Shown here in pieces: positions 3,713-50,597 of a DNA stretch of 64,000 nt. Numbering within the stretch: the stretch's first letter is position 1; each line of letters opens with the position of its first letter. The stretch lies in NCBI GenBank assembly GCA_002189035.1, contig NEEC01000004.1, forward strand, positions 1,054,001 to 1,118,000, written 5' to 3'. The position numbers and the translations under genes were made by a program. The notes beneath the pieces were generated by a model, which was given only the letters and a program-made list of their open reading frames with translations, was not told the DNA's origin and searched no databases. Source of the stretch: Utricularia gibba (taxonomy: Eukaryota; Streptophyta; Magnoliopsida; Lamiales; Lentibulariaceae).

Positions 3713-5561
3713 ATGTCAGATCTTGAGGCCCCGCTTCGCCCCAAGAGAAAGAAGACTTTCGTGGACTACTTTGTTCAGTTCAGATGGATAATTGTCATCT
3801 TTGTCGTTCTTCCCATCTCCTTCACTCTGTACTTCCTCATTTATCTTGGTGACATACGGTCTGATCGCAAGTCATTCAAGCAGCGCCAGAAAGAACACGA
3901 TGAGAATGTCCAGAAGGTTGTCAAGCGCTTAAAGGAGCGGAACCCAAGCAAGGATGGCTTGGTCTGCACAGCTCGCAAGCCATGGATTGCGGTTGGAATG
4001 CGTAATGTGGATTACAAGCGTGCCAGACACTTCGAGGTTGACCTTGCTGCCTTTAGGAACGTTCTTGATATTGATAAGGAGAAGATGATTGCGAGAGTCG
4101 AGCCTTTGGTATGTATGAGTCAGATTTCCAGGGTCACTGTCCCAATGAACCTATCTCTTGCTGTTGTTGCTGAGCTTGATGATCTTACTGTTGGTGGTTT
4201 GATCAACGGCTATGGCATTGAAGGAAGCTCTCACATTTATGGACTCTTCGCTGACACCGTTGTGGCTTATGAAATTGTCTTGGCAGATGGGAGTTTGGTT
4301 AGAGCTACAAAGGATAACGAATACTCTGACCTTTTCTATGCTATCCCCTGGTCTCAGGGGACACTGGGACTCCTTGTGGCTGCTGAGATTAAGCTTATTC
4401 CTGTAAAGGAATATATGAAACTGACATACAAACCTGTAGTTGGCAACTTGAAGGAGCTTGCTCAAGGTTATATGGATTCCTTTGCACCACGAGATTTGGA
4501 TCAGGACAATCCTTCCAAAGTTCCAGATTTTGTTGAGACGATGGTTTATTCTCCCACGGAAGCTGTGTGCATGACAGGGAGATACGCATCTAAAGAAGAA
4601 GCCAAAAAGAAGGGTAATAAGATAAATGAGGTTGGTTGGTGGTTCAAACCATGGTTTTACCAGCATGCGCAGACGGCATTGAAGAAAGGGGAGTTTGTGG
4701 AATATATTCCAACCAGAGAATACTACCACAGGCACACTAGATGCCTGTACTGGGAAGGCAAACTTATCCTTCCATTTGCTGATCAATTCTGGTTCAGGTT
4801 TCTTCTTGGTTGGATGATGCCCCAAAGGTTTCTTTACTCAAAGCCACACAAGGTGAGGCCATCAGGAATTATTACCATGAAATGCATGTCATTCAGGATA
4901 TGCTCGTTCCACTGTACAAGGTTGGTGATGCGCTCGAATGGGTCCACAGAGAGATGGAGGTTTGTCTCGGTTTTTTTCTCCGACAATGGTCTTTTATTCT
5001 TTCTGCAGATACTGACAGCTGAGTTTTTGACAGATCTACCCCATCTGGCTCTGCCCACACAGGCTATACAAACTCCCTGTTAAAACGATGGTTTACCCTG
5101 AACCAGGATTCGATCAAAATCTACACCAGGGTGACACTACCTACGCTCAAATGTACACAGATATTGGAGTCTACTATGCTCCAGGACCTGTCCTGCGGGG
5201 CGAGGTCTTCGATGGAGCAGAGGCAGTCCGCAGAATGGAGCAATGGCTGATAGAAAACCATGGCTTCCAACCACAGTACGCTGTGTCCGAGCTCTCAGAG
5301 AAGAGCTTCTGGAGAATGTTTGATGCTGATCTGTATGAGCACTGCAGACGCAAGTACGGAGCTGTTGGTACATTCATGAGCGTCTACTACAAATCAAAGA
5401 AAGGTAGGAAGACTGAAAAAGAGGTTCAGGAAGCAGAGCAGGAGACTCTGGAGACCCGGATGCCGATATCAACTAGACAGCATTCAGATGCTTCCCTTCA
5501 AGTTATGCATTGGCTTCTGCTTCTGCAAGTGCAATGTGATGTGTTTGTTTCCCCATTTTAG
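3713..5561 (+). CDS. DWF1: Delta24-sterol reductase DWARF1/DIMINUTO (frame broken twice)
   Basis: DWF1 converts 24-methylenecholesterol to campesterol in brassinosteroid biosynthesis; it is an FAD-dependent ER membrane enzyme. The N-terminus MSDLEAPLRPKRKK leads into one membrane helix (about residues 25-45) and then a FAD-binding PCMH-type domain with the family motif VGGLINGYGIEGSSH. Exon 1 is 3713-4959 and exon 2 starts at 5034 (IYPIWLCPHRLYKLP). The frame is lost at the CCCC run 4820-4823: after GWMMP the family sequence PKVSLLKATQGEAIR continues in another frame, as if one C were missing. A second missing base near 5455-5457 (CCC) would explain the unusual tail; restoring it would place a stop at 5474-5476 instead of 5559-5561. 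Both breaks look like homopolymer errors. Possible poly(A) signal AATAAA at 5646. Identity is very secure; whether it is functional depends on the breaks. Confidence 0.95.
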
Positions 5562-5824
5562 CGACTTCCATTCCATGAGGTGAACTCAGTTTGTGCTGTC
5601 TTCGTTTCTAATACTGGGCTTCATTTCCTTTCTTGTAGAAGCATTAATAAACTCTTTGTTTTAAATTGTTTTTAAGAACAATTGGGGTGTATTTTGTATT
5701 TTCAGAATAATTTGGGGCTGACAATTAATTTGAAGAACTACTTGTACGCATTATGGAAATGAATCATTAATTACAATAAGGACCCCGCCCTCAAAAACCA
5801 GATAACGTTCATTTCTCAGTTGGT

Positions 5825-8800
5825 ATGTTCGATCTTTGGAATGTCTTCTCTGGTCCTAAATTTTCCGATCACTTTTCAAGGTATCGGTTACGCCGCCGTT
5901 GCTCACTGTCGTCATTCTCGGGGAGTAATCTTCACGCGTTTGTCTACAAGCCATTGCAAGTGGTGGATAGAGGAGCGTCAGCATCTGGCGACGGCGGACA
6001 TCCTTCGATAGTTCTGGATAGTCTTCGGGTACTTCAATGGGATGAAGTCTGCGACTGCGTCGCTTCTTTTGCTGGAAGTTCACTCGGAAAGAAAGCGACT
6101 CAGGTTTTTTTTTTCACGGCTGGGACGTATTTTTGGGGTGGATATACTTATGTTGGAAGGAGTTGCTTGGGTGCTTTAATGGTGGTTCTTAAAAGTTCTA
6201 GATTAAGCAACGGTTTTATACAGATCGAGCTGGATTACGACACTAATGCACGATTCGGTTTGCTGAATCGTTTTTTTGCACTATTGCTTTTTCTCCTTTG
6301 AATTTTCATTTGTGTTGTGCCTAGGAGCTTCTGCGGAATTTGGATGGATCCTATGAAGAAAGTATGAAGCTTCTGAAGGAGACAAATGCAGCGGTGGAGA
6401 TGCATAATTATGGTGCAATGATGGACTTTATTGGCATCGATGTTGCTCACGTATGGTGATACATGTTCGTGATTATTCTCGCGTTTTAATGCCTTCGGTT
6501 TATAAGATTGTGCATATGTATGCAAACAAAGAAAAAATCTTTCGAGTTCCTTTTGAAGTAGCGGAGACTGATAGATGGTTCGTAAACTCGATGCTACCTT
6601 TCTGGCTGAAGGTGGAAACTTCCATAAAATGTGCACGTGGGGGATCTCCTGTGGGTGGAGTTGAAGCAATTGCACTTCGAGACCTTTTAAAGTTTGCAGA
6701 ATCGCTACAGTTTAATGTAAATGCTGCAGTAAAGGAGGATTATGATTGGTTTATGAGATTTATGCCCCTTTCAGAAATGGTATTGTGCTTGTATTAATAA
6801 ACTATACTCGTATTTGTGCCAATGGTTTGTGTACTGCCGTTCTAATTGTTGAATTACATGTGATTGCAGATTTTGGAATTAAGAATAACTCACCATTTAA
6901 TCAAGTTCATCGAGCAGCTTGTAGATGAGGATGGTTCAGTGAAGGACTCTGCGGTTCGTATGAGTTTGTCATTTCATTATGCTTTCAGTATACTCAATTC
7001 CATGTGATATTGTTGCCTTTCTTTTTAATCCGTCCATGTTTTCCTTTAGAGTTCAAGTTTGAGGCTAGCTCGTAATCAAGTGCGCTTATTTGAGAGGAAG
7101 GTAAAAGTTATATGATATGAATTAATGTTTGCTAGGGTTTTTTTTTTGTTTGAATAATCTTGGCGAACTTCATTGCTTTGATGCTGCTTTTTAGCTGTAT
7201 GAGATGATGGAAGCTATGATAAGGAACAAAACAGATGGAGACGCACTGGTAAGTTATTGCTATTTATATGTACCACCTCCATAACATTTTTATGTAATTT
7301 ACAAGATGCGCCAACTGGGCGTTCTTTTTTCCAGGAAGTATTTAGTATCGATGGAAGATGGTGCATTAAGTCAGCTGCTGATGGTCGGACCAAATTTGAG
7401 GGACTATTACTGGCAAGGTGTTCGTGTTCTTTATTGTTTTGCCACATCCCACAAGATTCTGTGTCATAATCATTTTTCATCAGCGAATATTATGTATTTT
7501 GGTATTGATTGAGTTGCACTACATATGATCACTATTTTTCTATGCTTTTGTGTAACACTCTTCCAGTTCCCGTGAAGGGACTGCCGTAGAACCACTACCA
7601 GCTGTTCCACTTAATGATGAGCTGGGACGTGCAAGGGAATCTGTGAGAAAAGCAGAGGAGGAAGTGCTCTTAAGGATAACTAAGAAGGTGTCTGGAGTTT
7701 CATTAAGCTGTAACCTTATTCTGTTGCCATTTTTCAAAGTATTCAGATTTATTTTTGTGAAAATATTGCAGATGCAAATGGAACTTGATGATATTGAGAA
7801 TGTTATGGTTACGATGATCCGGATAGACGCGGTAAGCTAACATTAACTCCATATATATAGTGCATTGTATTAGTTTTTCAATTTTGACATTGGTATGCAT
7901 AATGGCTGAATGTGAAACCTTGAAATTTTGAGCAATTACCTGGCTGTTTGTGTCAATTATTTTTAGTTTCTTGAGTGGAAAACAGCTGCTGCAATTTTTT
8001 TTGATAGGTAATCAGTTAAGATGTGAAATCTTTTTGTTATATGGCGATGTTTCTTTGAAGGTTTCATGCATGTTTCTTTCTCTCTTTTCTCTCTTTTTGT
8101 ATGCTTCTTGATTTGCATTACCTAGAAAATTATCAGAAAAAAATTAGTACAATTTCTGAGTTGCACTTCTAGTTTCCACTTGTTTTGGAGCTGGCTACCA
8201 AAATTTAGGGATCTGATACAGATAAATGCTAGAGCACGATATAGTCTTTCTTTCGGGGGTGCATATCCTGACTTGTATTTGCCAGAAGATGAAGATAGCG
8301 CTATAGCTGAAATCCCAACTGAGCAGACACTGAGTCAGAGGAAGTGGAATTTATATTTACCCAAAGCTTATCATCCACTGTTGCTTCATCAGCATCGCCG
8401 TAACTTGCATACCGCAGAAAAAGATTTGAATGATGCTAAAGCGGTGAGTTGCATATGAAGATTTCACCACTTGAATTATTAAATAGTATGTTTTGAATGG
8501 CCACCTGGCTCAGGTTACAAGCTAGAATGATGCTTCATTACTTATAATTATTGTTTCCACAAGAATCCATCATGAGTTATTATTAGCTTGCTAATGGCAT
8601 CAATCTTTTGACTTTTTGGAGTGTAATTCGTGTCTGTTTTTAATCTTTTGGAATTGCTCCTTCATATTAAATCTCATTCATCTTCAGGAGATCAGGAGAA
8701 GAAAGATGGGTGGATCCATAAACAGGAAAGGCGAAGGCAATTTCAATTTATCAGCTTTGGAAAAGCAGGTGACTCCTTGAGTGGAAATCAGCTTATTGAA

Positions 8801-11298
8801 CTTACTGCATCTTTCCAAATCCTATGCATCTGTTCACCATATGCCTCCGTGCTTCAGATTTCTAACTTGAAAAATGCCCCACCAGTCCCCTCCGACATTC
8901 TTATTGGACGTAATACTAAGGTTGTTGTCATTACTGGTCCAAATACTGGTGGCAAAACCATTTGCTTGAAGACAATTGGTTTAGCTGCTATGATGGCAAA
9001 ATCAGGTGACTACAGTTTCTATTTATAGTTTGTGTAAATGAATTTTTGCTTCCCGAGGCTCTAGAGGTAAGGACAGCACATCTCTTCTTATTTTTTCTTT
9101 TTCTGTAATAAGTCAAATATTGTTATATACAGGTCTGTATGTTTTGGCATCTGAATCTGCAAGAATTCCTTGGTTTGATTTTGTACTTGCCGACATTGGT
9201 GATGAGCAATCACTACTGCAATCTTTATCCACATTCTCTGGCCATCTGAAACAAATTAGTGTAAGTTGGTTAGGATAATGGTCTTATACGCATCAACAAT
9301 TGGAGCCATTTGAGAAGATCTACCTCTATTAGTTATTTTTTTTCTAGGGATAAGGGTTTTATTATTTCTACAAGTCTTCCACAACGTGCCCTTGAATGTA
9401 TGCAATCTTCTATTATTTGACCTACATAAAGTTTTAAAGTAGAAGTGGTTTAGAATTATAACTTTCTCATATATCTTGTTGATCACTGCATCGAAGGGTC
9501 TTCTGACCCCGATGTATATGCTCTATTTTTGTTTCCGCAAGTTGGCAACCTTTTTCATCGAGGGGTCATTTTTTTATATTACCAGCTTAAATCTCTCTTG
9601 ATATCTCTGTTTTTTCCAGGATATCAAATCCTTATCTACAAGGCTGTCATTAGTGCTGTTGGATGAAGTATGGAATCTTGAGTTATTATTTACGTATGAT
9701 AAATGATCTATCTACCACTTGAACTAATGAATACAAACACTCAGGTGGGTGCAGGGACGAATCCCCTCGAAGGAGCTGCCTTCGGCATGTCATTGCTGGA
9801 ATCGTTTGCCGATAGTGGTGCATTATTAACAATCTCAACAACACATCACAGTGAATTGAAAGCTCTTAAATGCATGTAAATGATGGAGACAATGACATAT
9901 AGCTTTTTTGCCAGATCCCCCTATGACTAATTTTCTTACCGTTTGACAGCAATTCTGCCTTTGAAAATGCTTGCATGGAGTTCGACGAAATCAATTTGAA
10001 GCCCACTTACAGGATCCTTTGGGGTGTGCCAGGTTGTTTCTCCTTCCCATTTTTTAACTGAGGTTATTTTTTAGCGACTCGGGTCCCAGACAAAAAAAAA
10101 TAAATAAATAAATAAAAGGTTTGGCTCAGTTGAGTCACCTTGTCTTCATAGTTTTAAACAGCTCGTTGTATTGCGTAAAATTGATTATTTGTATAGGACG
10201 TTCAAATGCCATCAATATTGCTGAGAGACTTGGGCTACGTGCTGAGATTTTGGATAATGCACGAGATCTCTATGGGGCAGCCAGTGCAGAGATTAATGAG
10301 GCGAGTCCAAAGCATGATTGATGCCCATGCTACTATATTCTGGATTTGTATTTAGCTTTCCAAAACTTGTGTTATAAGCTCGTTTTTTGTCATTTATCAT
10401 GAACTAGTTCTCTTTAACTCAGTGCAGCTGATAGTGGACATGGAAAGATTCAAGCAGGAGTATCATCACAACATTCAAGAGGCACAACACTACCTGGGGT
10501 TAGAATTAATTTTAGTCATTGATTTTTGCACGAAAGTGATTTCCGTTAACTGATTAAGGCTGCACTACTTCCATTGACTCTTAGGCCAGGTCCCCCCTAC
10601 AGAAACTTGAACTGTCACAAAAAAAAAAAAAATCTTGTTTATCACACACCATGGAACTAAAATCTTCTAGTTTTTGGTTTTAGACTCTCGGAAAAACTTC
10701 ATGCAAGCCTAGTCTCAGCCAATAGCAGAGTTTTGCAACACGCCATGAGGGAGAGAATTAGGATTGCGGAGGAGATTTCCAAGGCTGCAGCAGCAGCTCG
10801 TTCGATCATCCATAAAAAACTGAGAGATGCTCGTTCATTAGCTCGTACCAATCGATCCAAGCAACTTAAAGAAAACAGAGTTCAGGATGATACTTTAGCT
10901 TCAGTTAGTCCTCTAAGAACAGGAGAAACTACTACTTCTTCAGTGGCCACGACTCCAGCTCCTGAAGATGGGTTCCAGAAACTCGCAAGTAAGTGTTTCC
11001 TCAATTCTCCAGTCTCCTCTTTAAGTAAACACAGCCTTGATACAATGTCTTATGATTTTCTGCCTGCACTTGATTGTGAGAAACAATCTATTCGTTGTTG
11101 TTGACTTATCGAATGCTCATTTTTGCACATCCTATATCAGAAAAGAAGCCCCAACTGCCAAGTGTAGGTGACATGGTGAATGTTCCCTCCCTCAGTCTCA
11201 AAGCTAAGGTAATGAAATTGGATCCCTTGAAACAAGAAATGGTAGTCCAAGCTGGCAACATGAAGCTAAATGTGAAAATGGCTGATGTTGTCATATGA
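5825..11298 (+). CDS. MUTS2: MutS2-type ATPase (MutS homologue, plastid-predicted in plants)
   Basis: MutS2 proteins bind branched DNA, or stalled ribosomes in bacteria, and hydrolyse ATP; the plant role is not well settled. Twenty exons join in frame: 5825-6103, 6325-6450, 6612-6779, 6870-6953, 7050-7100, 7195-7248, 7335-7417, 7567-7687, 7772-7831, 8222-8443, 8688-8768, 8858-9005, 9133-9260, 9620-9667, 9745-9875, 9950-10032, 10197-10300, 10428-10498, 10684-10988 and 11141-11298. The ATPase has Walker A GPNTGGKT, Walker B LVLLDE, and the family signatures DIGDEQS and STTHHSELK. An Ala/Arg-rich coiled coil follows. The protein ends at KMADVVI and has no C-terminal Smr nuclease domain, as in the plant form I recall (At1g65070). 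Intron 17 has a GC donor (10301). It starts about 260 bases after DWF1 on the same strand. Confidence 0.93.
10100..10116. repeat. (TAAA)n microsatellite in a MutS2 intron
   Basis: An A-run followed by four AAAT/TAAA units lies in intron 16, between exons ending at 10032 and starting at 10197. An A-run of about 14 bases also sits at 10618-10632 in intron 18. Confidence 0.8.
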
Positions 11299-11952
11299 CA
11301 TCGAGACTAGTCTCCCATTAGACAAATCATAAATATGATTTCTTTGCAATAGTATGCGTTTTGCACTCATTCACAATTGTTTGTTTTCTTACTGTTCACC
11401 AAAATTTTCACATTACACCCACAATTCCTTAGGAACCATAAGAAATCGATCTGTGAGCCTCAACCACTGGAGCATCTTACTACACCTAGGAGCTAATTTT
11501 CAGATGGTGAAACCAGTTTCCGAGGGCGCTTTTTCACAAATAATAAGCCGTTAAGAACCAGAAAAAATTCAGGTATTGAATAGAGAGGTTCACAACAAGA
11601 CCAATCTACAATCTCTAAGATCACAACAAAACTTCCACAAAATGTAGCAAAGGAAGGAAATCAAGAGAAGCAGGAGCAAAGCAGCTGCTTCTGTCAATGG
11701 CATCTGCAAATGAAAAACTCCAATGACGTAGAATGGTAATAAATTGGTTGCAAGCTGCACTGTGCTTGTCTTTATACCTTTACAATGAAACAGAGCAGGG
11801 GCGTGGCCGACCTCAGGCTGTCTGTCCCCTCCATCGGGTGCTTATTAGATGATTCAGTTCAGGTCTCCATTTATGTTGTATCACGGTATGCATAGACCCC
11901 CAGACAGCTAGCTTCAGGGATATGATAAATCGACAGCTCGCTCCAATTTCTC
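11299..11952. other. Convergent 3' region between MutS2 and U-box gene
   Basis: This stretch holds the 3' UTRs of two genes that point at each other. I see no coding sequence and no clear terminator beyond A/T-rich tracts. Confidence 0.5.
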
Positions 11953-13291
11953 TCATTGGATTGTTCTGGTTAGTTTACACTTGGAAAGAAACATGGTGTC
12001 TGAGTAATTCAGACTGCACAGTTTCAACAGCTCAGCCGCTTGCTGCTTGAGAACTTGCCTGCAACCACTTTGGATGACAAGGAGGAGCTTTGCAGCAAGC
12101 CCTGCATCCACAGCTACCAAAGAGCATTCCTCGGGTGCAAGTTTGCAAACGGACAACAAAATTGAAAGAGAATGTCCTGTGCAAATCTCAGATATTCTCA
12201 TCAGCAGTTTTACCATGGTAGGTATAGTGCTTGGACAGTCCTTCAAAGCTTGCTTCCCCTGAGATGTAGATGAGAGTGCATCCAATGTGAAGAGCGCTAG
12301 CTCGATGCATTCCGGGCTCAAGAAGGGTATTAATTCTACCAACTGAGGTGCAGCTCCAATATTCAGAATCAGAGGCAGTAGTTCATCATGTATGCTAATG
12401 GATTTGAGAAGAGCAAGACCAGGCAAATGGCCGTTGGGGTGTCTCTTATCCCTGATCAGCCTCATCAACGCAACCAACAAACTGTGACTCGAAATTGTTT
12501 CTGCACGGAAGCTCTTATCATCCATCAGTGTCTCGATCAGACGAACACAGTTCAGCTTGACATCTATAGACCCTTCATTCAAGACATCTATCACACAAGA
12601 CAGCTTTGAAGGTTGCATCAGGATTGCTTTGGAATCAGAACACAGGGTCAAGTTCACTAGAATTGCTATGACTTCTGATCCCACGGTATACGAAGTAAAG
12701 GGCCGAGTAAGGATGAAAGATGTGCTACTCCCCCTTCATCTACAACGGCGGTCCTCGCAGTTGAATGATTAGCCACGAGCTGCTGCAGTTCCTTCAGAGT
12801 TTGTATTCTGGACTGGCCCTTGACCTTTTTAAGGGTCGTTAGGAGCTCCGAGGTTCTACCCTGTGCATCTTCTGATCTCTTCTTCATCTGCACATACTGC
12901 TGCGAAAACCAAGTGCAAATCAGTTGATAAAGCGTTCTGTTGGGGTGAGCGTATCATCCCAAAGCTCCTGCATAGTTGTTGGGCAAGTGTAATGCCCCAT
13001 TCCCAACCATTTGAGAATATTAGATTTCTCGTACGTTTGCCCTGTGCAGAGGGTGACAGGATCAGTCATAGGCTCTAATGAGATGGGGCAGATAAAAACT
13101 GAGGGAACTTCCGACAAGTTTAGCTCCTCAATCATCTTATTGAGATCCAATTTCTCCACGGCCCCAGTTCCTAACCCACCAACCCCAACTCCTCCCAAGA
13201 CTCCATCTTTTACCGCAGTATCAAGATCCAGCACACGCCCATCTCCGCCCCCAAGAAACCCATTCTTCTTTGACGGCTGAAGCATCGGCAT
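11953..13291 (-). CDS. U-box/armadillo-repeat E3 ubiquitin ligase, PUB30/31-like (frame broken twice)
   Basis: U-box proteins bind E2 enzymes and transfer ubiquitin; the armadillo (ARM) repeats bind substrate. The single-exon protein starts MPMLQPSKK, has a Gly-rich segment, then a U-box (VPSVFICPISLEPMTDPVTL, TGQTYE, YTCPTT), then ARM repeats to the stop at 11953. The reading frame shifts at two points. At 12940-12941, TLTPT... should read on as a segment ending LICTWFSQQYVQ in the next frame. At 12697-12702, LLGP should be followed by FTSYTVGSEVIAIL. Each is explained by one missing base in a short run. With both repaired, the protein would be about 445 residues, the normal length for PUB30/31. 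Upstream, 13292-14100 reads as leader and promoter. Family assignment is firm; the PUB number is from memory. Confidence 0.92.
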
Positions 13292-14878
13292 TGCTGTAAA
13301 AGTAGAAAAGGCTGTCCCAGGTACCCAAGAGAGCTCTCAACTTCCTTGCTTCCTTCTATTGTAAGGCTGAGCAAAATCTCCACCCTTCAATCACATCTGT
13401 CTGCCTTGGAGCACATGCGCAATTGTTAAAGGGATGAAAAGGGGAAGAAAGAATAAGGACTTGCTCAAAACATCCATCCTGCTTTCAGTGACAATTACGA
13501 GCAGCAACGAGGCACTCGCGGCATTCTAAAAGAGTAGCCTCACTACCACCTTTGGCTTTTTCCACGATTTCCTTTCAATGGTCAAAAGCCATCATTAGAA
13601 TGACAATGATAGAAAATTCATAACCCACACTCTTCCCTAGAACCCCAGATCTCAGCTTCCTGTAAACGCCTCAAAAAGAAGTCAAGAGATCCGGAGGGGG
13701 AAAAAGACCTTCTTTTGACGAAAATGCAAAGGAAACACCCAAGACCCAGACCACAATTCCACAAGACGAGAAAGAAAAAAAGGGTATCCCAACCCCAACG
13801 CTCCGCCGCTTCTGCGAGAGAAGAAATGGGCTCCAACCAAGAGACCAAAGCAGTAACAAACACTCTATCCGTGTGTCGCTAATCCATTGGGAACCAGGGA
13901 AATAATTTCTGGAATTCAGAAATGGTCGGAAAATTGGGTTTCCGGGGATTCAAAACCAAAGAAAGCGAGAAAGGAAGAAGCTCGCTTTGACTGTCCGTCG
14001 TCCTTTTCCCGTGTGGGACTTTGACTGCTTTCCAGCGCCAGAGCCTTTGCTTCCACTTTCCACCAATCAATCGCCCAACCCAACCCAACCCAACAAAAAA
14101 CTAAACAAAACAAAATCCCTTTCCTAATCACTCTCGGGAGGATGATCCTTCTCCATCAATCACCCATTCGGACCCAAATCGACCAGTCAAAGTCAGTCAA
14201 AGACTCGAAATAAAGAGAAGAAAAGAAACGGAAAAAAACGACACCATGATTCAACGACAGCAGAGGTTGTGGTGCTGGATCTGCACCCAATCACAGGTTG
14301 CCACCTCAGCCTGTCGCATTCAATGAAATGGAGGATGCGCGCACGTGGGCTCCACCTCATTATTCAAAATCATATTTATCACCAATAAAAATATTCCAAA
14401 ATACTCATCACACGCCCCCTAAACCAACAAAATCAGCACATGCTCGACTCAAACCTTTTACCCAATCAAGCAAAGTAGCAATAATTGAGAGCATCCATCA
14501 CTCCTGCACCTGCACTCAAAAAGAAGTAATTATCCTTATTATTATTTTATTAAATATTTTATTTTTTCCAGCGAAAAAGAAAAGAATCTCGTGTTGGGCC
14601 GCCAGGCCCAGTTATTCTTTACTTTCGGACCGGGATACGTTGGAAAGCGAATTCCCCGCGGTCCGAACCGTGGGAGTCTTAAAATCTGAACCGCCGGATT
14701 GGGTGGCTTTATAGTGGGCCTGGGTATCTGTAATAGTTTTCATGGGCCCACATATCATCGAAGTATCCCGGGCAGCGATATTACAGTGCCTGGCCCACTT
14801 TTATGCTTGATCGGGAATTTTCTCAACTCCCCGGCGGCTTCAGACTTGAGCGAGGCCGTTCGCTTCCACTTCCTTCCG
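13292..14878. promoter_or_regulatory. U-box gene upstream region and GGCCCA-rich intergenic stretch
   Basis: The first few hundred bases are pyrimidine-rich on the minus strand and probably hold the leader and promoter of the U-box gene. At 14595-14760 there are several TGGGCC/GGCCCA motifs (gttgggccgccaggccca, gtgggcctgg, atgggcccac), which suggest another promoter facing right. No recognisable protein is encoded. Confidence 0.4.
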
Positions 14879-16382: not shown

Positions 16383-17402
16383 TTAAGGGGATGTGTTGAC
16401 GTGTACTGTGACGCTCGCGGTGGAGTTACAGACGGGGCAGGAACGGAGTTGGTGGGTCCCACTTCCGCAGACGCTGCATAGGGAGAGATGCCGACAGGGC
16501 AGCAGAAGCACGCACGCTTCTCGCTCCCGGCAGCGCCTACAACGGCGGTTGCTCGAATCGGAAACGGAATCGCAATCTCCATCGCCGGCGCCACTGCTGC
16601 CGCAGACGGAAACGGCGTCGTCCTCCTCCTCGGCCGGTGCTCGGATGAATCGATTCCCGCCACCGACTTGAAGCAGGAGCTGTTCCAGATTCGTACGGAG
16701 AGAATTGGCCGTGGCCTCGTTGGTCTGCGCTAAATCCCGCCAGAGTTGATTTTCCGTGTACAGGGAAGTGACTCTCTCTTGGAGAACTTTATTCAATGTG
16801 CCGATCCTCTGGATCTGCTCATCCTTCTCCTTGAGCTTCCTCATCAACTCGCCCTCGATCGCCGTTTCCAGCAGCCGCAATTGCTGCCGCTGTCTCTCCT
16901 CTAGCCCTACCCTCATCCGCTTCGTCTACAAAACACAGACAGAACACAGAGCCTCCTAATCCTCAGATCACTTCAGCACGTCGTCCTTCACCACACTCAA
17001 TTTCCAATAAGAGAGATGTACGTACATGTTGCGCGATGACGGCGTCGATCTCCAACTGCGAAACCTGGATTTGCGACAAGACCTCATCGCCCAAAAACCC
17101 GAAACCACTCTTCATCTGCGGCGCCGCACTGAACAGCTCTTCCAACGAACCCACCGAAGGCTTCCTCTTCCCCGGAAACTCGTACCCCTCCGGCGCCCTA
17201 TTACAAATCACATCCCCATCATCGCCGCCTCCCCGTCGCCAAGAAACCGCATCTGGTGCGATGTACTGCACACACAATCCCAAATCATCCCCAATCTAAA
17301 CCGAAAAAAAAAACAATAAAATCAACGCAAGCTTTCAGATCATTCACCGCACCTTCCTCGTTGCTGGGTGATGAGATTGAACCGCCGCGCTTCGATCTCC
17401 AT
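16383..17402 (-). CDS. BOI-related RING E3 ubiquitin ligase
   Basis: BOI/BRG proteins ubiquitinate targets and restrain cell death and gibberellin responses. The main exons are 17026-17295 and 16383-16925. The protein holds FLGDEVLSQIQ, a conserved coiled-coil WRD region (LKEKDEQIQRIG, ENQLWRDLAQTNEATANSL) and a C-terminal RING (CRRCREREACVLLLPCRHLSLC, then CPVC), ending VNTSP. A likely first exon at 17353-17402 encodes MEIEARRFNL, which fits the MAVEARH-type start of the family. Its end phase does not match the exon beginning at 17295 (acceptor TTTAG), so either one base is missing or translation begins at the Met at 17283. The family is secure; the N-terminus is not. Confidence 0.88.
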
Positions 17403-33927: not shown

Positions 33928-35765
33928 ATGGAAGACAGTAGAGTTGGAGTTAAAAATGTGGATAGTAGCAGGGACGGTTGTAGCACCGGCAATGGCAGGC
34001 CACCAATTCCCAATTCCTTCACCGGCCGGGAAAGATGTCGACAGCGCTTGGATACTACTGGAACTCTTAGCCTGTGTTCTAAGTCCCTTGTTCGGTGTCA
34101 GTCTATAGAATTTCCAGTTAAGCTTCGGTTCTTTTTCCCTTTTTCCTCGTTCATGTGGGACTGGTGCAATTTTCTAGATTGCTTCTTATTGATTAAGTGG
34201 GTTTCAAACGTTTTCTTTGTATTACTTTATGGTGTCCAACGCCTGATTTTACAGCAGTTTTCGTGGAAAAATTTGTTTTGGTTATTGGGTTTTGATGAGC
34301 GTGGGATTGTAACCGACATATGACGATTTTTTGAGACAAGTGGAAAATCCATGATCCTTTGGCATTTGGGATTTTTTATCCAACATCTTGCAACATTTTT
34401 TTTTTGTTTACAAGATTAGTGCATTAGCAGGTGGAGATTATGCCCTTGGATACTTCAAAAGACAAGAGATTCACTGGATATGGCAATGATGCGGTGGAAT
34501 ATCCGCTGCTTCGTTCAGGTGCTTGGGCAGATATTGGCTCACGCTCAAGCATGGAGGATGTGTATGTCTGTGCTGACGACTTGATGCTTATATACGGAAG
34601 AAATAATTCCACTGGAAGGCCAAGTGCCTTTTATGGGGTAACTTATCTCCTAAAACAAAATGCTTTTATACTCTTATTAGTTCGTCATATAAAGTGCCTT
34701 CAAATTCTTTCTGCAAGAAAATGGTATTGTAATTGGGAGATGTTTCGAGTTGGGGTTTTTGTGATATTATTTGCTCTTGACTTGTTTTTTTAATCTTTTT
34801 TTCAGGTTTTTGATGGACATGGAGGAAAGCATGCAGCAGATTTTGTCTGTGACCATCTTCCGAGATTCATTGTGGAAGATGAAGATTTCCCTGAGGAGAT
34901 TGAGAGAGCACTCTCATCAGCATTCTTACAAACGGATGCTGCTTTTGCTGAAGCCTGCTCCTTGAATGCAGATCTTGCTTCTGGCACCACTGCTTTGGCA
35001 GCTCTTGTTATTGGGAGGTGGGTATTCGAGTTCAATATGATTCATCAGTTTTTTTTTTCACCATATTAAATTTTGCAAATCCATGCCAGCATCTTAAGTA
35101 GGATATTTATGGGCTTCGTTTTTTTTCTGGAAGTCCCTCATTATTCAAATTCTTGATATGCTCACTATTATCCCGACTATATTCAAAAGCAATGATGTTG
35201 CTAATATTGCAGTTCTTTGGTGGTTGCAAATGCTGGGGACTGCCGAGCTGTGCTCTCTCGTCGAGGTATAGCAGTTGAAATGTCAAGAGATCATAAGCCC
35301 ATCTGCTTGGAGGAAAAACGGCGTATAGAGGCCTCTGGGGGTTATGTGTGTGATGGTTATCTTAATGGGCAGCTCAATGTTGCTCGCGCTCTCGGAGACT
35401 GGCATATGGAAGGACTGAAAGGGGGCAATGATGGTGGTCCTCTAACTGCAGAGCCTGAGTTGATGAGCACAGAGCTGACTAGGGAAGATGAGTTTCTCCT
35501 CATCGGTTGTGATGGCTTCTGGGAAGTGTTCATGAGTCAAAACGCTGTTGACTTTGCTCGCAGAAGGCTTCAAGTGCACAATGATCCAACAAGGTGCAGC
35601 AGGGAACTTGTAGACGAGGCTCTGAAACGGCGGAGTGTAGATAACTTATCAGTTATAGTTGTCTGCTTCCATCCAGAACCACCTCCCAAGTTGATAACGC
35701 TCCCTCGGCCCGAGTACATCGCAGCATATCTGCTGAAGGCCTCAAGGAGCTGCAGAGTTTTTTGA
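33928..35765 (+). CDS. Type 2C protein phosphatase (PP2C)
   Basis: PP2Cs are Mg/Mn-dependent Ser/Thr phosphatases. The catalytic exons 34431-34637, 34806-35017 and 35213-35765 join in frame and show the family motifs [76 protein letters not shown] and [12 protein letters not shown]; the metal-binding Asp residues are present. A first exon at 33928-34092 gives [10 protein letters not shown] ... NGRPPIPNS ... SLCSKSLV, which looks like the variable N-terminus of the PP2C22/27/47 type. Its phase at the GTGTCA donor does not match the next exon, which must begin in phase 0 at 34431. Either one base is missing in exon 1, the donor differs, or translation starts at the Met at 34440. Catalytic identity is firm. 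Confidence 0.92.
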
Positions 35766-39398: not shown

Positions 39399-39959
39399 AT
39401 GAGCGCCAGGCCAGGGGATTGGAACTGCAGGTCATGCCACCATCTCAACTTCCAGCGCCGTGACTCATGCCAGCGTTGCGGGGACCCTCGCCCCGGAGAC
39501 GGGTTCGGCTCGAGAGGCAGCGCGGCGTTCGGCCTCACCGGTCCGGACGTCAGGCCCGGCGACTGGTATTGCGCCGTTGGGAACTGCGGCGCACACAACT
39601 TCGCCAGCCGCTCCAGCTGCTTCAAATGTGGAGCTCTCAAGGAGGAACCCGGACTCGGGTTCGACGCCCGTGTCCGGAGCCTCGTCTTCAGCGCCGGGGG
39701 CGGTGGCGGTGGCGGAAGCCGCTCCGGGTGGAAGTCCGGGGACTGGATTTGCACGAGGTGAACCCTTTTCATTACCAATGCTTAAAATCGATTCTCGTTC
39801 TCGAATGATACAAGTAGAAGGGATGAAACACACAACTCACTTCCTCACTCCACATGAATTGAGTGCAGATTGGGCTGCAACGAGCACAACTTTGCGAGCA
39901 GGATGGAGTGCTTCCGGTGCAATGCACCCAGGGAGTCATGCAGCAAACCCACGTTCTGA
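39399..39959 (+). CDS. RanBP2-type zinc-finger protein with three fingers
   Basis: These small plant proteins carry Zn-ribbon fingers that bind single-stranded RNA. Exon 1 runs from 39399 to about 39759 and exon 2 from about 39870 to the stop at 39957-39959. Three fingers each show the GDWxC...CxxxNFxxRxxCxxC pattern: GDWNCRSCHHLNFQRRDSC; GDWYCAVGNCGAHNFASRSSC; and GDWICTR|LGCNEHNFASRMEC, the last split by the intron. Gly-rich linkers lie between them. The whole protein is about 150 residues, the usual length for the At3g15680/At5g25490 group. The GC content is much higher than in the flanks. Confidence 0.93.
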
Positions 39960-41145: not shown

Positions 41146-43025
41146 ATGGCGATTGCCGAGGAGCACGACCATCTCTCGACTGAAATTCTCAACCGGGGGA
41201 TCGAGTCGTCGGGTCCCGACGCCGGATCCATGACTTTTTCAGTCAGGGTTCGCCGGAGGTTGCCCGACTTTCTCAACTCCGTGAAACTCAAGTATGTGAA
41301 GCTGGGGTACCATTATTTGATGAATCATGCGGTGTACCTTGCTACGGTGCCGATTTTGGTGCTGGTTTTTGGAGCTGAAGTCGGGAGTTTGAGTAAGGAG
41401 GCGCTATGGCAAAGGATCTGGGACAGCGCTGCGGGTTACGATCTGGCTACGGTTGTTGGGTTTCTTGCTCTTCTTGTCGTCACCCTCTCTGTCTACTTCT
41501 TGTCTCGCCCGCGCCTATTTATCTTCTTGACTTCGCTTGCTACAAACCCACCGATGATTTGAAGGTCAGTCTCCGTTCCTTCTTGATCAGAGCATAGGAC
41601 AACACCTGGAGTTTCGAACAAACGCAGTACAGATTCAATTTTTATAGAACCCATTAGATTTGATTAGGTGGAATAGAATTTGGATAATGAAAAAGAAAAG
41701 AAAGATTTCTTTTTTTGGATGGGAAGGGAAAAGATTTGACTTTGATCATGCATGCAGGTGAGCAAGGAAGAATTCATCGAATTAGCGAGGAAATCCGGTA
41801 AATTCGATGAAGAGAGTGTGGAGTTTCAGAGAAGGATACTCCAGAGCTCCGGCATCGGCGACGAGACCTACGTTCCCAAATTAATTGGGTCGCCGGAAAA
41901 CACCGCAACGATGAAAGAAGGACGCGCGGAGGCTTCAACCGTCATCTTCGGTGCCTTGGATGAGCTGTTCGAGAAAACCCACATCCGCCCTAAAGACGTC
42001 GGCGTTCTCGTCGTCAACTGCAGCATATTCAATCCGACCCCGTCGTTGTCAGCGATGGTGATCAACAAGTATAAGATGAGGGGAAACATTTTGAGCTTCA
42101 ATTTGGGTGGGATGGGTTGCAGCGCCGGAATAATTGCGCTCGATTTGGCGAGAGATATGTTGCAGGCGAATCCCAGTAACTACGCCGTGGTAGTGAGTAC
42201 GGAGATGGTGGGCTACAATTGGTATCCTGGAAAGGATAAGTCGATGCTCATTCCGAATTGTTACTTCCGAATGGGCTGCTCCGCCGTGTTGCTGTCGAAT
42301 CGCCGCCGCGATTTCCATCGCGCAAAATACAAGCTCGAACACATCGTACGAACCCACAAGGGCGCCGACGATCGCAGTTTCAGGTACCCATTTCCATCTG
42401 TTTGCAATACCTGGGCGTGACAGTTCTTGATCCTCGAGTTATGAATCAACTGACGGATCCTAATTGGTGTAACAGAAGCATCTATCAAGAAGAAGATGCA
42501 GAAAGATTCAAGGGACTGAAGATCAGCAGAGACATAATCGAGGTTGCAGGGGACGCCATTAAAACGAACATCACCACACTTGGCCCCCTTGTTCTCCCTT
42601 TATCAGAGCAGCTACTCTTCTTCTCCACCCTCGCGTGGAAGCTCCTTTCCGGCAAGAAATCACAGCCGACCAAGCCGTACATCCCTGACTATAAGCTCGC
42701 CTTCGAGCACTTCTGTATGCATGCTGCAAGCAAAACAGCTCTAAATGAACTCCAGAAGAACTTGAAACTGAGCGATGAAAACCTGGAGGCTTCGCGTGCC
42801 ACACTTCACAGATTTGGGAACACATCCAGCAGCAGTACCTGGTACGAGCTCGCGTACCTGGAAGCTAAGGAGCGCGTCAAGCGCGGCGACCGTGTCTGGC
42901 AACTGGCTTTTGGTTCTGGCTTCAAGTGCAACAGTGTCACCTGGAAGGCGGTTAGACGCATCCGGCGACCAGAGAGGAACCCGTGGCTTGATTCAATCGA
43001 TAGGTATCCTCAGGGACATTTTTAG
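41146..43025 (+). CDS. KCS10: 3-ketoacyl-CoA synthase 10, FIDDLEHEAD-type (frame broken once)
   Basis: KCS enzymes condense malonyl-CoA with long acyl-CoA in very-long-chain fatty acid elongation at the ER; FIDDLEHEAD acts in the epidermis and prevents organ fusion. The exons are 41146-41564, 41758-42383 and 42476-43025. The N-terminus [18 protein letters not shown] and [12 protein letters not shown] is specific to this subfamily. Two membrane helices follow (about 60-80 and 100-120). Catalytic residues are Cys in GGMGCSAG, His in [11 protein letters not shown] and Asn in [10 protein letters not shown]. Near 41514, SRPR should continue [17 protein letters not shown], which is present but in the next frame, so one C appears to be missing in the CC at 41514-41515. 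Otherwise complete. The FAH gene lies 1.5 kb downstream. Confidence 0.95.
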
Positions 43026-44574
43026 ATGGGAGTGCACCAAGACGACTCTGTGCCATTGTATCCTTTTCAGTTTTTTTATTGTAACCAAAACATCTGAGGA
43101 TGTAGTCTGTGGAAACAACTGGTGAGCTCTCATCTCATCAAACTATTCATGAATCATTTCTGTATCCTTGGCATACTTGACAAACAGAGGAAGCTGATAT
43201 CCGGGAAATCTAACCATATTTACAGAGGATCAACCGGCATCTACCCACCTGATCTTACATGAAGGATTGGATCTAAAGCCAGAGTACAAACACGCTCCCA
43301 GAGTCTCAAAATCTTCGAGTATGTACTGTTTTTAGCAGAGCCAGGATACGAATCTTTGTTACCTGATATCCACGCCTTAGGAAACCCACGAATCTCTTTA
43401 CAAGCAAGGTTTGATCTTTCTGATGCAGGAAGACGATTCATTGGGATAGTCCGGATAGGTAGATAGCACAGTGCTGTATTGCGCTACAATGAGAGTAACC
43501 TTTGGCTAGGACTGCGCTCAGCTGCACTTTCTAGTGCTTGATACAGTTGCAATCCTAGTTGACTTCCAAAACTCTGCATCTACTCTTTGAATAACCAGAG
43601 TCCCTGAATTCTGTGAGAAAATGGATGGGAAAGAGAGAAAATCGGATGAACACTTCTCAGAATTTGTTGTTTAGCAGAAACCAGTGATCGCAGAGACGTG
43701 CAGCGAGAGTGGATGTTTTATTGATTAGAAAAGGAGTACATAATCCATACAAAAACACAGCTTAAATAGACAAAGGCTTAACAGACTGACCGAAAGCAGC
43801 TTCCGTGAAAGCAGGAAAAGTGGAGATTGATTCTCTGGTTCGTTGGCTTAACGAGCACGTGTGTTGATAAATTCGGATCATCTCTTTCCGCTACTAATTG
43901 GCAGTGTTGGGTGGGCTAATAAACACGAACGAATTCATGCAAGAAGTTCTTTTTAAGCAAAAAATTGTATCTTCCGAGAAACCCTTGAAGAAGAAAGGAA
44001 ATCACATTGATATTCACCACTGGAAAGAACACCTGGAAATCAGTAGGGATTGATTGGAAAGCCATGCTATGCATTCGCCATCCTCTAAGTATAAAGAATG
44101 AACTTTTGAATTCTAAATACGAAGAAAGAACAATACAACAATGGTGTCAGATCTGGGAAAGGCTAAAATTTTCAACTTGTGTTGATTTTAGCAGAAACTG
44201 ATAAGCGGGAGTACATTTTATACAGCACAAGCCAACCGGGGAAGTGGGATATGAGCACCGACGGTTCATCGCCACTTTTTCTATGCAATCTTACCTTAAC
44301 AGAGAAAACCTACTTCACTTCTCTTGATTAAGTTTAGTTTTTGTACGTCAATGCCATCGTTCCATCATGAGATGACCACCCTTTTGGTTTTGAAGTGGTC
44401 CCATTTCCGCGATCTTATCTGTTTGAATTCAATTTCGATATAGATACAAGTCCGAGATTAAGGTTAGTCACAGGGCACAACTTGCCTGAAAAAAGCAAGA
44501 AGCCAATTTCGATTTGTGCAGTGTTTCCAGTATATATTGAGTATGCAGATGAACAAGATGATGCATCCGTAAGC
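43026..44574. other. Intergenic, KCS10 3' end and FAH leader
   Basis: No ORF resembles a known protein. The last 180 bases are open in the FAH reading frame back to 44395, but probable leader introns (ttccag at about 44530, atgcag at about 44548) make this part of the 5' UTR more likely. Confidence 0.4.
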
Positions 44575-45711
44575 ATGGAAAAGGAGGCCAGAGGCTGTGA
44601 GTTGGATATGAGCAAACCCCTTGGCTTTCAAGTGAGACATATTTTTTATACACAACACACATCTTTCCCCTTCTCATTTCTTGAGCTTGAATAGGTTGGC
44701 CATCTTGGTGAAGCATATCATGAATGGGTTCACCAGCCTGTTCTCACACAAGGAAGCCCCAGATATTTCGAAAGCGAGTTTTGTGAGGTTCGATTAGATC
44801 CCTATGTTACTCGTCTCTTTGATTTCATTCTCTTGATCTACTAGAGCTTACAAAACGCAGATGCTGACAAAGACCCCATGGTGGACTGTGCCTCTAGTCT
44901 GGCTCCCCGTTGTTGGATGGTGCCTCCTGAGATCCATTTCATTGGGATGCGCAGCTTCCTTGGCCTTGTCATGTGCAACTCTTGGAGTTTTCATCTGGAC
45001 ATTGATTGAGTATATTCTTCATCGCTTCGTCTTCCACATCAAGACCAGCAGCTACTGGTACGGATTTTACTCGTTTGTAAGAATCCTCCCTTCTTTCTGG
45101 AGCTGAGCAACACTTTTCAGGGGCAACACGATCCATTTTCTTACTCATGGTTGCCATCACAAGCACCCCATGGATCATCTACGCCTTAATATCTCTCCAT
45201 TGGCAGTTGCTATTCCTGCGTTTCTGGTATCACCATTCCTTTTCGGATCATTTACTTGTCCAAACGAGCTCATCCCATACATAATTCTTCTATGCAAACT
45301 CGCCTAGCCCATGCGGCTCCTGAACTTCAACAGATTCAACTCCTGAACCACTGATTCCTGGTGCAGATCTGGAATTTGCTGAAGGTGATCCCAACCCCAT
45401 CAGCCAGACCCGCCTTGTTTGGAGGAATCTTGCTTGGTTACATAGCATACGATGTAACTCACTACCATTTGCACCATGGGCCAACAAGCAGCCGCATATG
45501 GGGGAGTCTCAAGGCATGTGAATCCCCAACTCATTTCTCTTTCAAAACACTTACTACAGCAACTGATACTGAATCCTTCCCTTCGCAGAGATATCACATG
45601 AACCATCATTTTCGTATCCAAAACAAAGGCTTCGGCGTCGTTTCAGCCTTCTGGGATAAGGTTTTCGGAACTCTACTTCCATATGAACTCCTCCTTGAGA
45701 AGACCCAGTGA
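44575..45711 (+). CDS. FAH: Fatty acid 2-hydroxylase (FAH), di-iron membrane enzyme
   Basis: FAH adds a 2-hydroxyl to very-long-chain acyl groups of sphingolipids at the ER and interacts with cytochrome b5 and Bax inhibitor-1 in plants. Six exons join in frame: 44575-44631, 44695-44787, 44861-45057, 45121-45226, 45367-45513 and 45589-45711. Histidine boxes are HRFVFH, HGCHHKH, HYHLHH and HMNHHF, all complete. As in plants generally, the fused N-terminal cytochrome b5 domain of the yeast and animal enzyme is absent. Intron 5 has a GC donor (AAG|GCATGT at 45514). The N-terminus before SKPLGFQVGHLGEAY is less certain; I chose the Met at 44575, but the Met at about 44608 is possible. Confidence 0.93.
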
Positions 45712-47557
45712 AGTCAGTCCCATTGGAGGAAGCTCCTGAGTTTCGCAGGGCATGGGTTTGCAATACTTACGACGTCAAGAAAGTGGGTCTTCCAACTGCA
45801 TGCATGGCTGATGCTTGTGAAGCATGGCATCTCCTAGAACTATGCATGGATCGATCACATGTATCTTATGTTGAAATTTACGTCAGATGAATGCAAGAAA
45901 ACCCTAAAATCACAAATATATTTACCAACTAATTCATATTATATTTCGTTGTGATGGAAATAAATTACTCCACAATGAGTTTTTTTTGTTTTTGAGATTG
46001 GATTTTTAAGTAATGAATCAAATAAGTATGTACATGAAATCCAAGTATAATAAATAATATGAATTACATTCGAAAAATTTAAGATGAATTGATTAATATT
46101 GATTTATATAGTTCTTATTTACTTAACCATGTTATTTTAATCTTCCCATATGAAATTATTTGTTTTAATGCTCATCCTTAAATAAAATTGGTCTTATTCT
46201 AGTTCATGTTTTTTTATGATTTTAGATAATATTTGAGTTATATATCAATGTAATTTTTATCATTTAATTTTAATACATCTCAATATTTTTTTAATCAAAA
46301 CTTAAATTAATACTGAACTCATTTTAGTTATCCCATTAAAAATCCGATGAGTCTAATGATATTAGATCCAAATATAGATTACATTCAAAAATAGGAGTTA
46401 CAATCGATTACTAATAAAGAAGTATAATGGAACTTGTTTTCATAAAATAAGATATTCATAGTGAAAAATGGCTACAAAAAATGAGTGATTAAGCTAATAA
46501 TGCTATGAGAAGCTTAAGATATTCATGTTATGGTGTACGTTAGCCCCAAGATGATTTATGCATTTTTTTTCCTTTTTTTATTTTTAATGAATGGATTGGT
46601 TGTAGTATTTTTTAATATTAATTTAAATTTGACCACAAAAAAGGCCTATGGCCCTATACATGTGAAGCTCCTCCTAAATTGATTGGCTAACAGGCGTTAA
46701 TCATACACTTGATTTTGATCGCATACTTGCATTATTAAATATAAAATATTCGGATTTCAGATATTAATTTTTTAAAAAACCAAGGAAATAATGTCCGCTA
46801 AATTTCCTATTATATGAAAATGACGTCAGCATGCCTACTAAAACAAATATCTGGCTCCTATTCATAGAAAGCGAATATTCTTGGAATTATTGTAATTTTT
46901 CTTTTCAGTTGAAAAAAATAATAAAGTATTAGAAGATAAGCCGCACTGCTTTTGTTCGTTTGTCTCTGTTCTTATCCTCGAAATGCATTTAACATATCGC
47001 CACCTGGTCACCATGTCTTGTCCTGAATGACGAGGACGATTCTAATTTGAACACCCCTTTTATTTCCAATTCCAGAAAAATCCAGTTAATATTAAATATT
47101 TTGTTATAAATTAAAATGAGAAATGAGGATGATAGAATTAAAATTAATTATAGGTTTATTCATATTTTTAATCATATATGTGTTGTGATAATTGATTTCA
47201 TGTTATTTATATTTATATTTTTATTTTCATATTCATAGCTATGTATATTTGAATAAATATATTCATATATTTTTAATATATATTTTCAATTACAATCATA
47301 AAATATACATTTATGTAAATTAAATACTTTAAATTAATCATTAATTAAAGTTTGGAAATTTTAGTTTGCATTTTACGAAATAAAAATATATAATTAGAAT
47401 GAGAGTAATTAATACTTACATGAATAGTGGTGCCTGAATAGCGTTATAACATACTATTGAGGCTACTAGCAGGGGAAAATACACCTGTGCATCTCGATCG
47501 GCCCTAAAAGAGAAGCCATGCCATCAAACAGAGGACGCGCGAGTGGATGGAGATATT
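45712..47557. other. AT-rich intergenic region
   Basis: No gene, RNA or transposon could be recognised. 45890-47450 has long A/T tracts; any old mobile element here is too decayed to name. Confidence 0.45.
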
Positions 47558-48148
47558 TCAAAGTAAACTCCTGATGATGCCACAGGCGACCCCTGCCAAG
47601 TCCTGCACGTTCTTGTTCACTTCTCTCAGAGTCCCGTCCTCCGCCACCGTGCCGTACCTCCGGTCACAAATCTGGGCTTCCCACGCGGCGTCCTTCATCC
47701 CGAATTCCGCGAATTTGGGTACTCCTCTCGTCAGCGCTGCCACCGCCTCCGGGACGTCGGCCGTCACCACCGCCTCGTACGAGTCCCTGCAGTCTGCAAG
47801 CGCCGCTCTGTGTTCGGGGACGTGGGCTTCGTCTCCTTTATGGCAGAGAGCGCCACCTATTGAGAAAAGAAGGTAGCAGCATTACCCCTGGACGGAATTC
47901 GTGTAGTTAAGTAAGCAGTGTAATTGATAATTCATTACCTCCGCCTTTTCCCGGACGGCCTCGACGACAATCAGGCCGACGTCCTCCACGTTCGCGGCGG
48001 CTGCGCTCCGAGGATCGGCGGCGACGGCGGAGACGCAGAGGTCGTAGTTGGGTGTGCTTCTGCACGCGGACTCGATCAGAGCTTCGTTCCCCGGCTGCGT
48101 GATGCGATGCAATTGGAGAATTGTGAGCAAGATCAGCGGCAACTTCAT
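47558..48148 (-). CDS. Invertase/pectin methylesterase inhibitor (PMEI domain), frame broken once
   Basis: These secreted four-helix proteins inhibit cell-wall or vacuolar invertase, or pectin methylesterase. The exons are 47939-48148 and 47558-47856. The Met at 48148 gives a hydrophobic signal peptide (MKLPLILLTILQL), preferred over the Met at 48196. The Cys-hairpin motif is ESACRSTPNYDLC, followed by VEAVREKAE|VALSAIK. The frame is then lost near 47837-47839: the rest (EHRAALADCRDSYEAVV, EAVAALTRG, KFAEFGMKDAAWEAQIC, GVACGIIRSLL) runs in the next frame, as if one A were missing from an AAA run. With that, the four conserved Cys are in place. Invertase inhibitor is favoured by the C-terminal part, but the target cannot be read from sequence. 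Confidence 0.85.
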
Positions 48149-48912
48149 ATCTACCAGAACACAGGTTTTTGTAGTTCTGTTTCTTTCCTCAGACAAATAG
48201 CAAGCAAGCCACTCCGATAGAAGATATTTATGGGTGGAATATTCAATAAAAATTAAATACTAATAATATATATTATTTATTACTATTTTTTTAAGTTCGA
48301 TTGTGACATCAACGGCTGTATTGCAATCCCTATCCACCGCTATTATTTCACTGAAAAAAAAACATAGCTAGTTGTCTGAACTACTATTATTAGTATTATT
48401 TTAAGTATGCAAAGTATTCAAAATAGTTTCTATTTCTTTAAAAATATTTCAAAAATAATTTTATTATTAAATATAATTAATTTATGTTCAAAAAAATAAA
48501 AGTCCAATCATATTTTTTGGAATAAATTCTTGAAAAATGTTTTCCAATAAACAAAATCAAATATAAAATAACTGTAATTTTCAAGAAGTGAATTTAAAGT
48601 GCAGGGATCAGAACAAACAGATATTTTTGTGGTGGTGGGGTGGGGTGAGGGACAGATTCGTCTTTCCACGCGCCGGCTGCTGCCGCGGTATGGAGGCCAA
48701 TTGTTTTCTATTTCCAGCTGGTATCCAAACCTTAGTTTTTAATTTAATGTATATATAAAAAATATATATTTTATTATCACCCCTGAATATCAAATCATAT
48801 AATTTAGTTCATCCACAACCATGACATTAACATTTTATTTTTTAATCATGTCAAATTAATAATAATAATAATTTACCCTTAAAAATTAGACGGCCAGCGT
48901 CTTTGTTGCTTA
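48149..48912. other. AT-rich spacer
   Basis: Promoter side of the inhibitor gene and 3' flank of the lipase gene. No gene seen. Confidence 0.4.
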
Positions 48913-50597
48913 TTAGGGTGTTTTTGGGTAATTGGTGTCCTTCACGGTGTCTGAGTTCTGATTGGATCGCCGGAGTCTCTGCTCGTTGCACAATAGCTCC
49001 GCGAACCTGTTTTGAAAACATAATAAAAAAATGAAAATGTATTGTTGTTTCGACACGTGTAAGTGATCTGTTGAGTCAGAATTTACCTTTGCAAGGCATG
49101 TTCATTTGTTCCGTTATGAGGTACGGGTTCGTAGTTCCCCGTTAACGGGTTGATTCTGGAGACCGGCTTCTTCAGTAGGTCTTCTCCGATCTTCAGCAGC
49201 CCCTGCAAGTTCTGCTCCGTCGTGACGTCGGCCGACGAGTATTGTTGCGGCAGGGAGTCATCCTGAATGCGAAGATACCTTTCTTCGGAGTGAACGACTT
49301 GGAAGACTGAGCGCAGGAAGTAGTCCACCATGTCTGCACTTGCTTGATTGAAGACGTCCAGGATCGGAATGGAGTTGCCCTGAAGCACCCACCCAAACAC
49401 CCCCAGTGCGCCGCCGTCTCCGCCGTGTATCTGTGCTCGCGCTTCCCTGATCCGGTGCCCAATGAGATCACCAGAAGCCTAGTGTAATCCAACGGCTGGT
49501 ACTCGGAGAAATCCGGGTTTTTCATGAAGATTTCGGTCGTCACTTCGCGGACAGCAACCAATGTCTACAAGAAACGTAGAGAAGTGAACGGAGGCCTCAA
49601 GTATTGCGGGATAGGAGTAGTACGAGACTACAACTATTCGATACTAAGCTTACTGGGTTGTTGGCTGCCACACCGCCATCAACGAGGTTGAAGTCCCGAT
49701 ATGTTCCGGAGTCATCCTCGTTCGTGAAACTGTAGGCCGGAAGAAGCGTCGGCGCGGCGGATGTGCCGATGCATATATCGGCCAACAACGCATCCATGTC
49801 GGGTCGTTCATCGACCTGCAATACAAACATTTCCCCCATCAAACCCACCATCAAGGAGTCCACATCCTCTACATCCTGCACGCCTGTCACCTTAAAAGAA
49901 GAGAAGATGGTCGGAGTCATGTTCTTGATATCGAAAGTCGGAATTACAACGTTCGTCAAGGTCTGATGAAGCCGAGTTTGGCCCAGGTTCTGTTTCAGCA
50001 GGTTGCGTAGATACTTCCCGTTGTACTTTGGGCGTGACAACTGATTCATCGTGCTGAGTAGTGGTCCTAATTTACACCTGCAAGTCACAAACATCCTTCG
50101 AACACGTCCCACATACAAACGTCATCATATCTACTCTACACGACAGTGATCCAACAACGAGTTGACTCGCGGAAGCGATGATGCCGGAAAACAGACTTAC
50201 GGGAGCTGCGGGAAGATCTGAGGACCGTGTTGCACGTAAAATGGAGCGAGATCTTTAGCAGCATACAAGGGACGGCGGTTGGGGCCCGGAGCTGTGAGCA
50301 TGGCAGCTATAAGCCCCCCTGTGCTCGTTCCGGCGATCACATCAAAGTAATCAGCTATACGAGCATCCTCTCCGTCAAGGTCCTGCCCCATGACACCAAG
50401 TTCCATCAAACTCAGGCTTCGTTGCAAACGAATTTGGCCGGAAAGAGTACCTGAAGTCGGGACTCGAGGAAGTCGAGAATCTTTGCCGGTATTATTCCGC
50501 GAATGCCGCCACCGTCGATGCTCAGAATGGTGATCAACCGCCCTTTTGACGGAGGAGGAACGACGTCGCCCTTCAGACACGGCTCCATGTGTTCCAT
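48913..50597 (-). CDS. Patatin-like phospholipase A (pPLAII type), frame broken once
   Basis: Patatin-like enzymes release fatty acids from galacto- and phospholipids and act in defence and root signalling. Five exons: 50451-50597, 50201-50384, 49654-50077, 49087-49564 and 48913-49006. The oxyanion loop is SIDGGGIRG, the nucleophile elbow GTSTGG (Ser) and the catalytic Asp lies in [11 protein letters not shown], so the Ser-Asp dyad is intact. At 49400-49404 (CCCCC on the plus strand), HWG should continue [17 protein letters not shown], found in the adjacent frame, so one base appears missing. The C-terminal part ([26 protein letters not shown]-like) is typical of PLP2/pPLAII. The start is taken at [11 protein letters not shown]; an upstream exon is possible because an acceptor-like TATACAG precedes it. 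Confidence 0.92.

Follow-up and report, generated by a model that had tools for sequence, protein, structure and literature searches.

Long-read assemblies are known to contain single-base homopolymer deletions, which lead to false frameshifts in otherwise good genes (PMC8306402, PMC8812927, PMC12007338). For Utricularia gibba, a PacBio assembly made with HGAP/Quiver has been published, which comprises 581 contigs with an N50 of 3.4 Mb (PMC5793159). The DNA analyzed here, called the window in the following, is a stretch of 64,000 nucleotides that represents bases 1,054,001-1,118,000 of contig C413 (5,667,865 bases). The assembly totals 100.09 Mb in 516 contigs, and this size and the contig of 5.67 Mb are compatible with the HGAP/Quiver assembly of PMC5793159. 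A literature search on frameshifts or assembly quality of U. gibba yielded nothing useful.

A first-pass annotation of the window had claimed that five genes lose their reading frame at seven points, each time at a short run and as if one base were missing, and had suspected homopolymer undercalling in a long-read or 454 assembly. The analysis led to the conclusion that the breaks arose as errors in the consensus of a long-read assembly, in which one base was undercalled, chiefly in short G/C runs (probability about 0.95).

Frame breaks in the window

Firm switches to the -1 frame were found at five of the seven points, i.e., the first DWF1 break, both breaks of the U-box gene and the breaks of KCS10 and the patatin-like lipase gene, while the second DWF1 break and the PMEI break were weaker but probable (Table 1). 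Codon statistics, which had been trained on intact genes of other contigs, moved to the -1 frame at 4822, 12944, 12699, 41514, and 49404, were silent at 5455, and had little to say before the PMEI point. A G/C run of 2-5 bases is present at or a few bases from all seven points, with CGCGCC of KCS10 as the poorest homopolymer. In the Pfam analysis, the U-box/ARM_PUB pieces and the PMEI pieces fell in different frames, and their profile positions were successive.

Table 1. Genes of the window and the points at which their reading frame changes.
Feature	Position	Strand	Observations
DWF1 (delta24 sterol reductase type) gene	3713..5476	+	FAD_binding_4 E 4e-14; single strong genomic match
DWF1 break 1	4820..4823	+	C4 run one base short, -1; three-frame translation, codon statistics
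DWF1 break 2, near C-terminus (weaker)	5455..5457	+	C3 run one base short; three-frame translation
U-box/ARM (PUB) gene, coding region and upstream open frame	11956..13336	-	U-box E 2.5e-12, ARM_PUB E 7.5e-71
U-box break 1	12942..12945	-	G4 on + (C4 on gene strand), one base short; homeolog gap 12944
U-box break 2	12697..12702	-	CCC-TTT on gene strand, one base short; homeolog gap 12699
BOI-type RING gene, intact, outside the error set	16389..17295	-	donor/acceptor in phase 0
PP2C gene, intact, outside the error set (ends approximate)	33929..35750	+	phase-joining introns
KCS10-type 3-ketoacyl-CoA synthase gene	41147..43026	+	FAE1_CUT1_RppA E 1.8e-94, exon after break
KCS10 break	41508..41516	+	CCCGCGCC, one base short; C4 homeolog 1-nt gap at 41514
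PMEI (pectin methylesterase/invertase inhibitor) gene	47561..48148	-	Pfam PF04043
PMEI break (probable)	47824..47826	-	C3 on gene strand, one base short; Pfam frames, translation
Patatin-like lipase gene (5' end approximate)	49086..50600	-	frames and paralog alignment
Patatin break	49400..49404	-	C5 on + (G5 on gene strand), one base short; paralog, codon statistics

The first of the genes was taken to be DWF1 from its likeness to the family sequence. Three-frame translation revealed that at its first break one frame can be read up to GCCCCAAAG (4819-4827), and that PKVSLLKATQGEAIRNYYHEMHVIQDMLVPLYKVGDALEWVHREME follows in the -1 frame. Downstream of this point the codon statistics were +12.7 bits for the shifted frame and -7.0 for the old frame. 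At the second break ETLET is followed by PDADIN and a stop codon in the -1 frame. Here the codon statistics were silent because only about eight C-terminal codons remain after the break, and the case for this break is based on the short C-terminus of the DWF1 family. A PDB search with the C-terminal part of DWF1 detected no relative. Sequence matching found no second DWF1 copy in the genome, and thus the window copy is the sole one. Arabidopsis dwf1 mutants are brassinosteroid-deficient dwarfs. In view of this phenotype and of the sole copy, two real frameshifts in the window DWF1 gene are implausible. A decayed DWF1 homeolog was detected on contig C4 (3291491-3294764); all that is left of it is part of the last exon, which contains stops and deletions. 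This relic is located beside an AT-rich stretch, and the neighbouring U-box duplicate has been retained.

The U-box homeolog is part of a duplicate block of the window region on contig C4. The two copies could be aligned over 1,364 bp with 87% identity, and in this alignment the window copy had 1-nt gaps at 12944 and at 12699. The alignment had no further gaps except one at the stop end and, near 12505, two 2-nt gaps that compensate each other. Around the second break, the ARM_PUB profile matched with positions 4-53 (weakly) before and 61-308 after it, in differing frames. The differences between the homeologs were counted for third versus other codon positions and amounted to 31/118 versus 1/119 and 4/119 in the first frame segment, to 22/81 versus 5/81 and 5/82 in the second, and to 64/247 versus 22/247 and 13/247 in the third. 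The excess at third positions in all three segments indicates that the shifted frames were under selection, at least during most of the period after the duplication. Purifying selection is thus seen in every frame segment, as a time-averaged signal with which a very recent loss is still compatible.

At the KCS10 break the codon statistics changed from f1 to f0, and at the patatin break from f2 to f1. A patatin paralog on contigs C509 and C508 stays in frame where the window copy shifts. For PMEI, Pfam positions 2-49 were found in exon 1 and positions 71-153 in the shifted frame, with an intron between them, and only about ten exon codons separate this intron from the break. Almost certainly all five genes are intact in the plant; the true base at each individual position of the window is one that we infer.

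Two further genes had been put forward because their exon phases seemed not to join, and both turned out to be intact. The BOI junction CAT/GTACGT ... TTGTAG/ACG is in phase 0 with the product IAQH-TKRMRVGLEER, and the RING end is intact. PP2C is in phase at FYG/VFDGHGG and at the intron that follows, and CCA/GTTAAG, a donor of phase 0, fits its first intron; the phase was judged only at introns where conserved sequence permits this.

Single-base losses on other contigs and in loci assembled twice

The GRAS genes of other contigs, which are mostly intronless, were analyzed with a frameshift-aware profile alignment. The profile was built from intact genes, and therefore the event-free intact genes are not an independent control. 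In total 23 events of -1 and six of +1 were detected. Four of the latter were found at inserted intron-like sequence (one in L033, two in L040, and one in L046), while introns do not explain the other two, of which one can be read as two single-base losses (L035) and one was in a divergent case (L045). After the removal of divergent, intron-like and terminal cases, 20 clean -1 breaks remained in 14 of the 40 genes (35%), which corresponds to a break in roughly every 2.2 kb of coding sequence. None of these 14 genes contained in-frame stops. Three KCS, six HSP70, and seven BAHD breaks were found in about 87 kb, all 16 of them -1 and none +1; they were derived from match coordinates alone, from which small pieces escape, so that these numbers are a lower bound.

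The GRAS breaks were clearly associated with G/C runs. Runs of four or more G/C touched ten of the 20 break intervals versus 2.2 expected (4.6-fold), and a value this high was reached in none of 2,000 random draws from these genes. Runs of five or more were found at six intervals versus 0.6 expected. A/T runs of four or more showed no enrichment (2 versus 2.6 expected), and at eight of the 20 intervals the longest touching run was A/T or had a length of one. In several GRAS paralogs the break is located in or next to the GC-rich RPGGPP motif, the codons of which form C or G runs, and all six HSP70 breaks adjoin G/C runs of 2-5 bases. In the 349 kb of examined DNA, which include some overlap of loci, A/T runs extend to 20 bases, G/C runs nearly end at 6-7, and no G run of 7-12 is present.

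Two HSP70 copies, C241:16598-17794 and C304:2236266-2237462, differ by real substitutions but share one -1 break, located at a G5 run, which could have been inherited or could be a context-driven error that was made twice. The use of C241 versus C304 as an error yardstick was dropped, as the differences are mainly substitutions and the copies are divergent. The P450 family (PF00067; 92 of 269 candidates scored) was not counted, as partner pieces were absent and nearly all junctions were intron-like, and neither were the subtilases, with three usable pairs, all -1 and one in a stop-ridden copy. A sign test over 43 events was set aside, because in it window points that the reader had picked were combined with GRAS events that had been prefiltered to -1.

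The most direct evidence came from one locus that was assembled on both C508 and C509. The two contigs have 1,511 bp in common, without any substitution, and differ at three places by a single base (G6/G5, C5/C4, and C3/C4). In the coding part, C508 is out of frame at ACCCCGG, where it has one C fewer, and C509 is in frame, reading MLATPGDSHRPLFAAKD through ACCCCCGG. Conversely, C509 is out of frame at ATCCCACT, again with one C fewer, and C508 is in frame, reading NVVIPTYDINKMTPVVFSS through ATCCCCACT. Real alleles may differ in run length; compared with two noisy consensus calls, two alleles that are separately broken by G/C-run losses and are otherwise identical are far less likely. A comparison of C316 with C412 over 4.1 kb revealed a single substitution and ten gaps, all of them one-sided; the contig C316 is small, and part of its gaps lie outside homopolymers. 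The small contigs C509, C316, C241, and C376 duplicate loci that are present on larger contigs. Therefore, the assembly contains redundant or haplotype copies, which may inflate its gene counts.

The cause of the breaks

The proposal of a common technical cause is strongly supported by the -1 bias, the G/C-run context, the occurrence on other contigs in families that are unrelated, and the disagreement of C508 and C509. One dominant indel sign, a location at G/C runs (weakly for KCS10), and copies that disagree without substitutions are what long-read homopolymer errors should leave. The plant DNA would keep the frame, and the assembled consensus would drop a base, chiefly in a short G or C run, whereupon the gene would appear to go on in the -1 frame. 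As to the platform, a contig of 5.67 Mb fits a long-read assembly and does not fit the 454 alternative of the earlier claim, for which short contigs are expected, and a 454 origin was dropped. Size and contiguity would agree with long reads that had not been polished with short ones, and the chemistry is one that we infer. Four of 26 contigs measure exact multiples of 500, well above chance expectation (C1, 8,500,000; C2, 6,192,500; C505, 3,452,500; C507, 642,500); perhaps the submitters cut them at round coordinates.

Real null alleles or recent pseudogenes in the sequenced plant would be in line with the duplicated partner block, in which genes have been lost and the DWF1 homeolog is a true relic. 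However, stops, mixed indels and relaxed selection, the marks of true pseudogenes, were not found: there is a strong -1 excess, the broken GRAS genes are free of stops, and the U-box gene has its third-position excess in all segments, even if a time-averaged signal tolerates a very recent loss. In addition, DWF1 is single-copy, and each loss in the locus assembled twice is contradicted by the other copy, so that null alleles are very improbable. It is similarly improbable that some of the seven breaks go back to introns that were overlooked or to splice phases that were misread. Such an explanation holds for BOI and PP2C, it is likely for several of the +1 GRAS cases in which sequence is inserted (L033, L040), and the PMEI break has an intron shortly upstream, but at the remaining points the homeolog, paralog or profile continues with one nucleotide missing and no insert.

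Even less credence is due to a clone that is a real mutator, e.g., deficient in mismatch repair, and shortens its homopolymers by genuine slippage deletions. Single-base homopolymer deletions are the expected product of such a defect, and C508 and C509 differ at such runs only. Yet upon loss of mismatch repair slippage should strike the longer and commoner A/T runs most, and these are not enriched at the breaks, although they reach 20 bases in the examined DNA. Moreover, the living plant would have to do without a third of its GRAS genes and without its sole DWF1 gene. It is just as improbable that some of the losses are real slippage deletions caused by a mutator that is specific for G/C runs in a line kept clonally.

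Consequences and comparison with known systems

If the breaks are undercalled bases of the consensus, many other genes of this assembly will look falsely broken. Studies of gene loss, pseudogenes or missing families in this genome would count false losses, and these would be biased to GC-rich conserved motifs such as RPGGPP. What stands out in this artefact, which is of a known kind, is how often it occurs and that it prefers G/C runs.

Pseudogenes that arose after whole-genome duplication do occur in this genome, as exemplified by the DWF1 relic on C4. In contrast to the window breaks with their one clean missing base, the relic has large deletions, stops and low identity. Mis-calls of 454 sequencing share with the breaks that they are errors of homopolymer length, but a 5.67 Mb contig is beyond the reach of a 454 assembly, and the G/C-only, -1-only pattern is unlike what 454 should give. 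The long-read-only assemblies of PMC8306402, PMC8812927, and PMC12007338 concern small genomes, whereas a contiguous plant assembly is affected here, and the context is G/C runs, even of only 2-4 bases.
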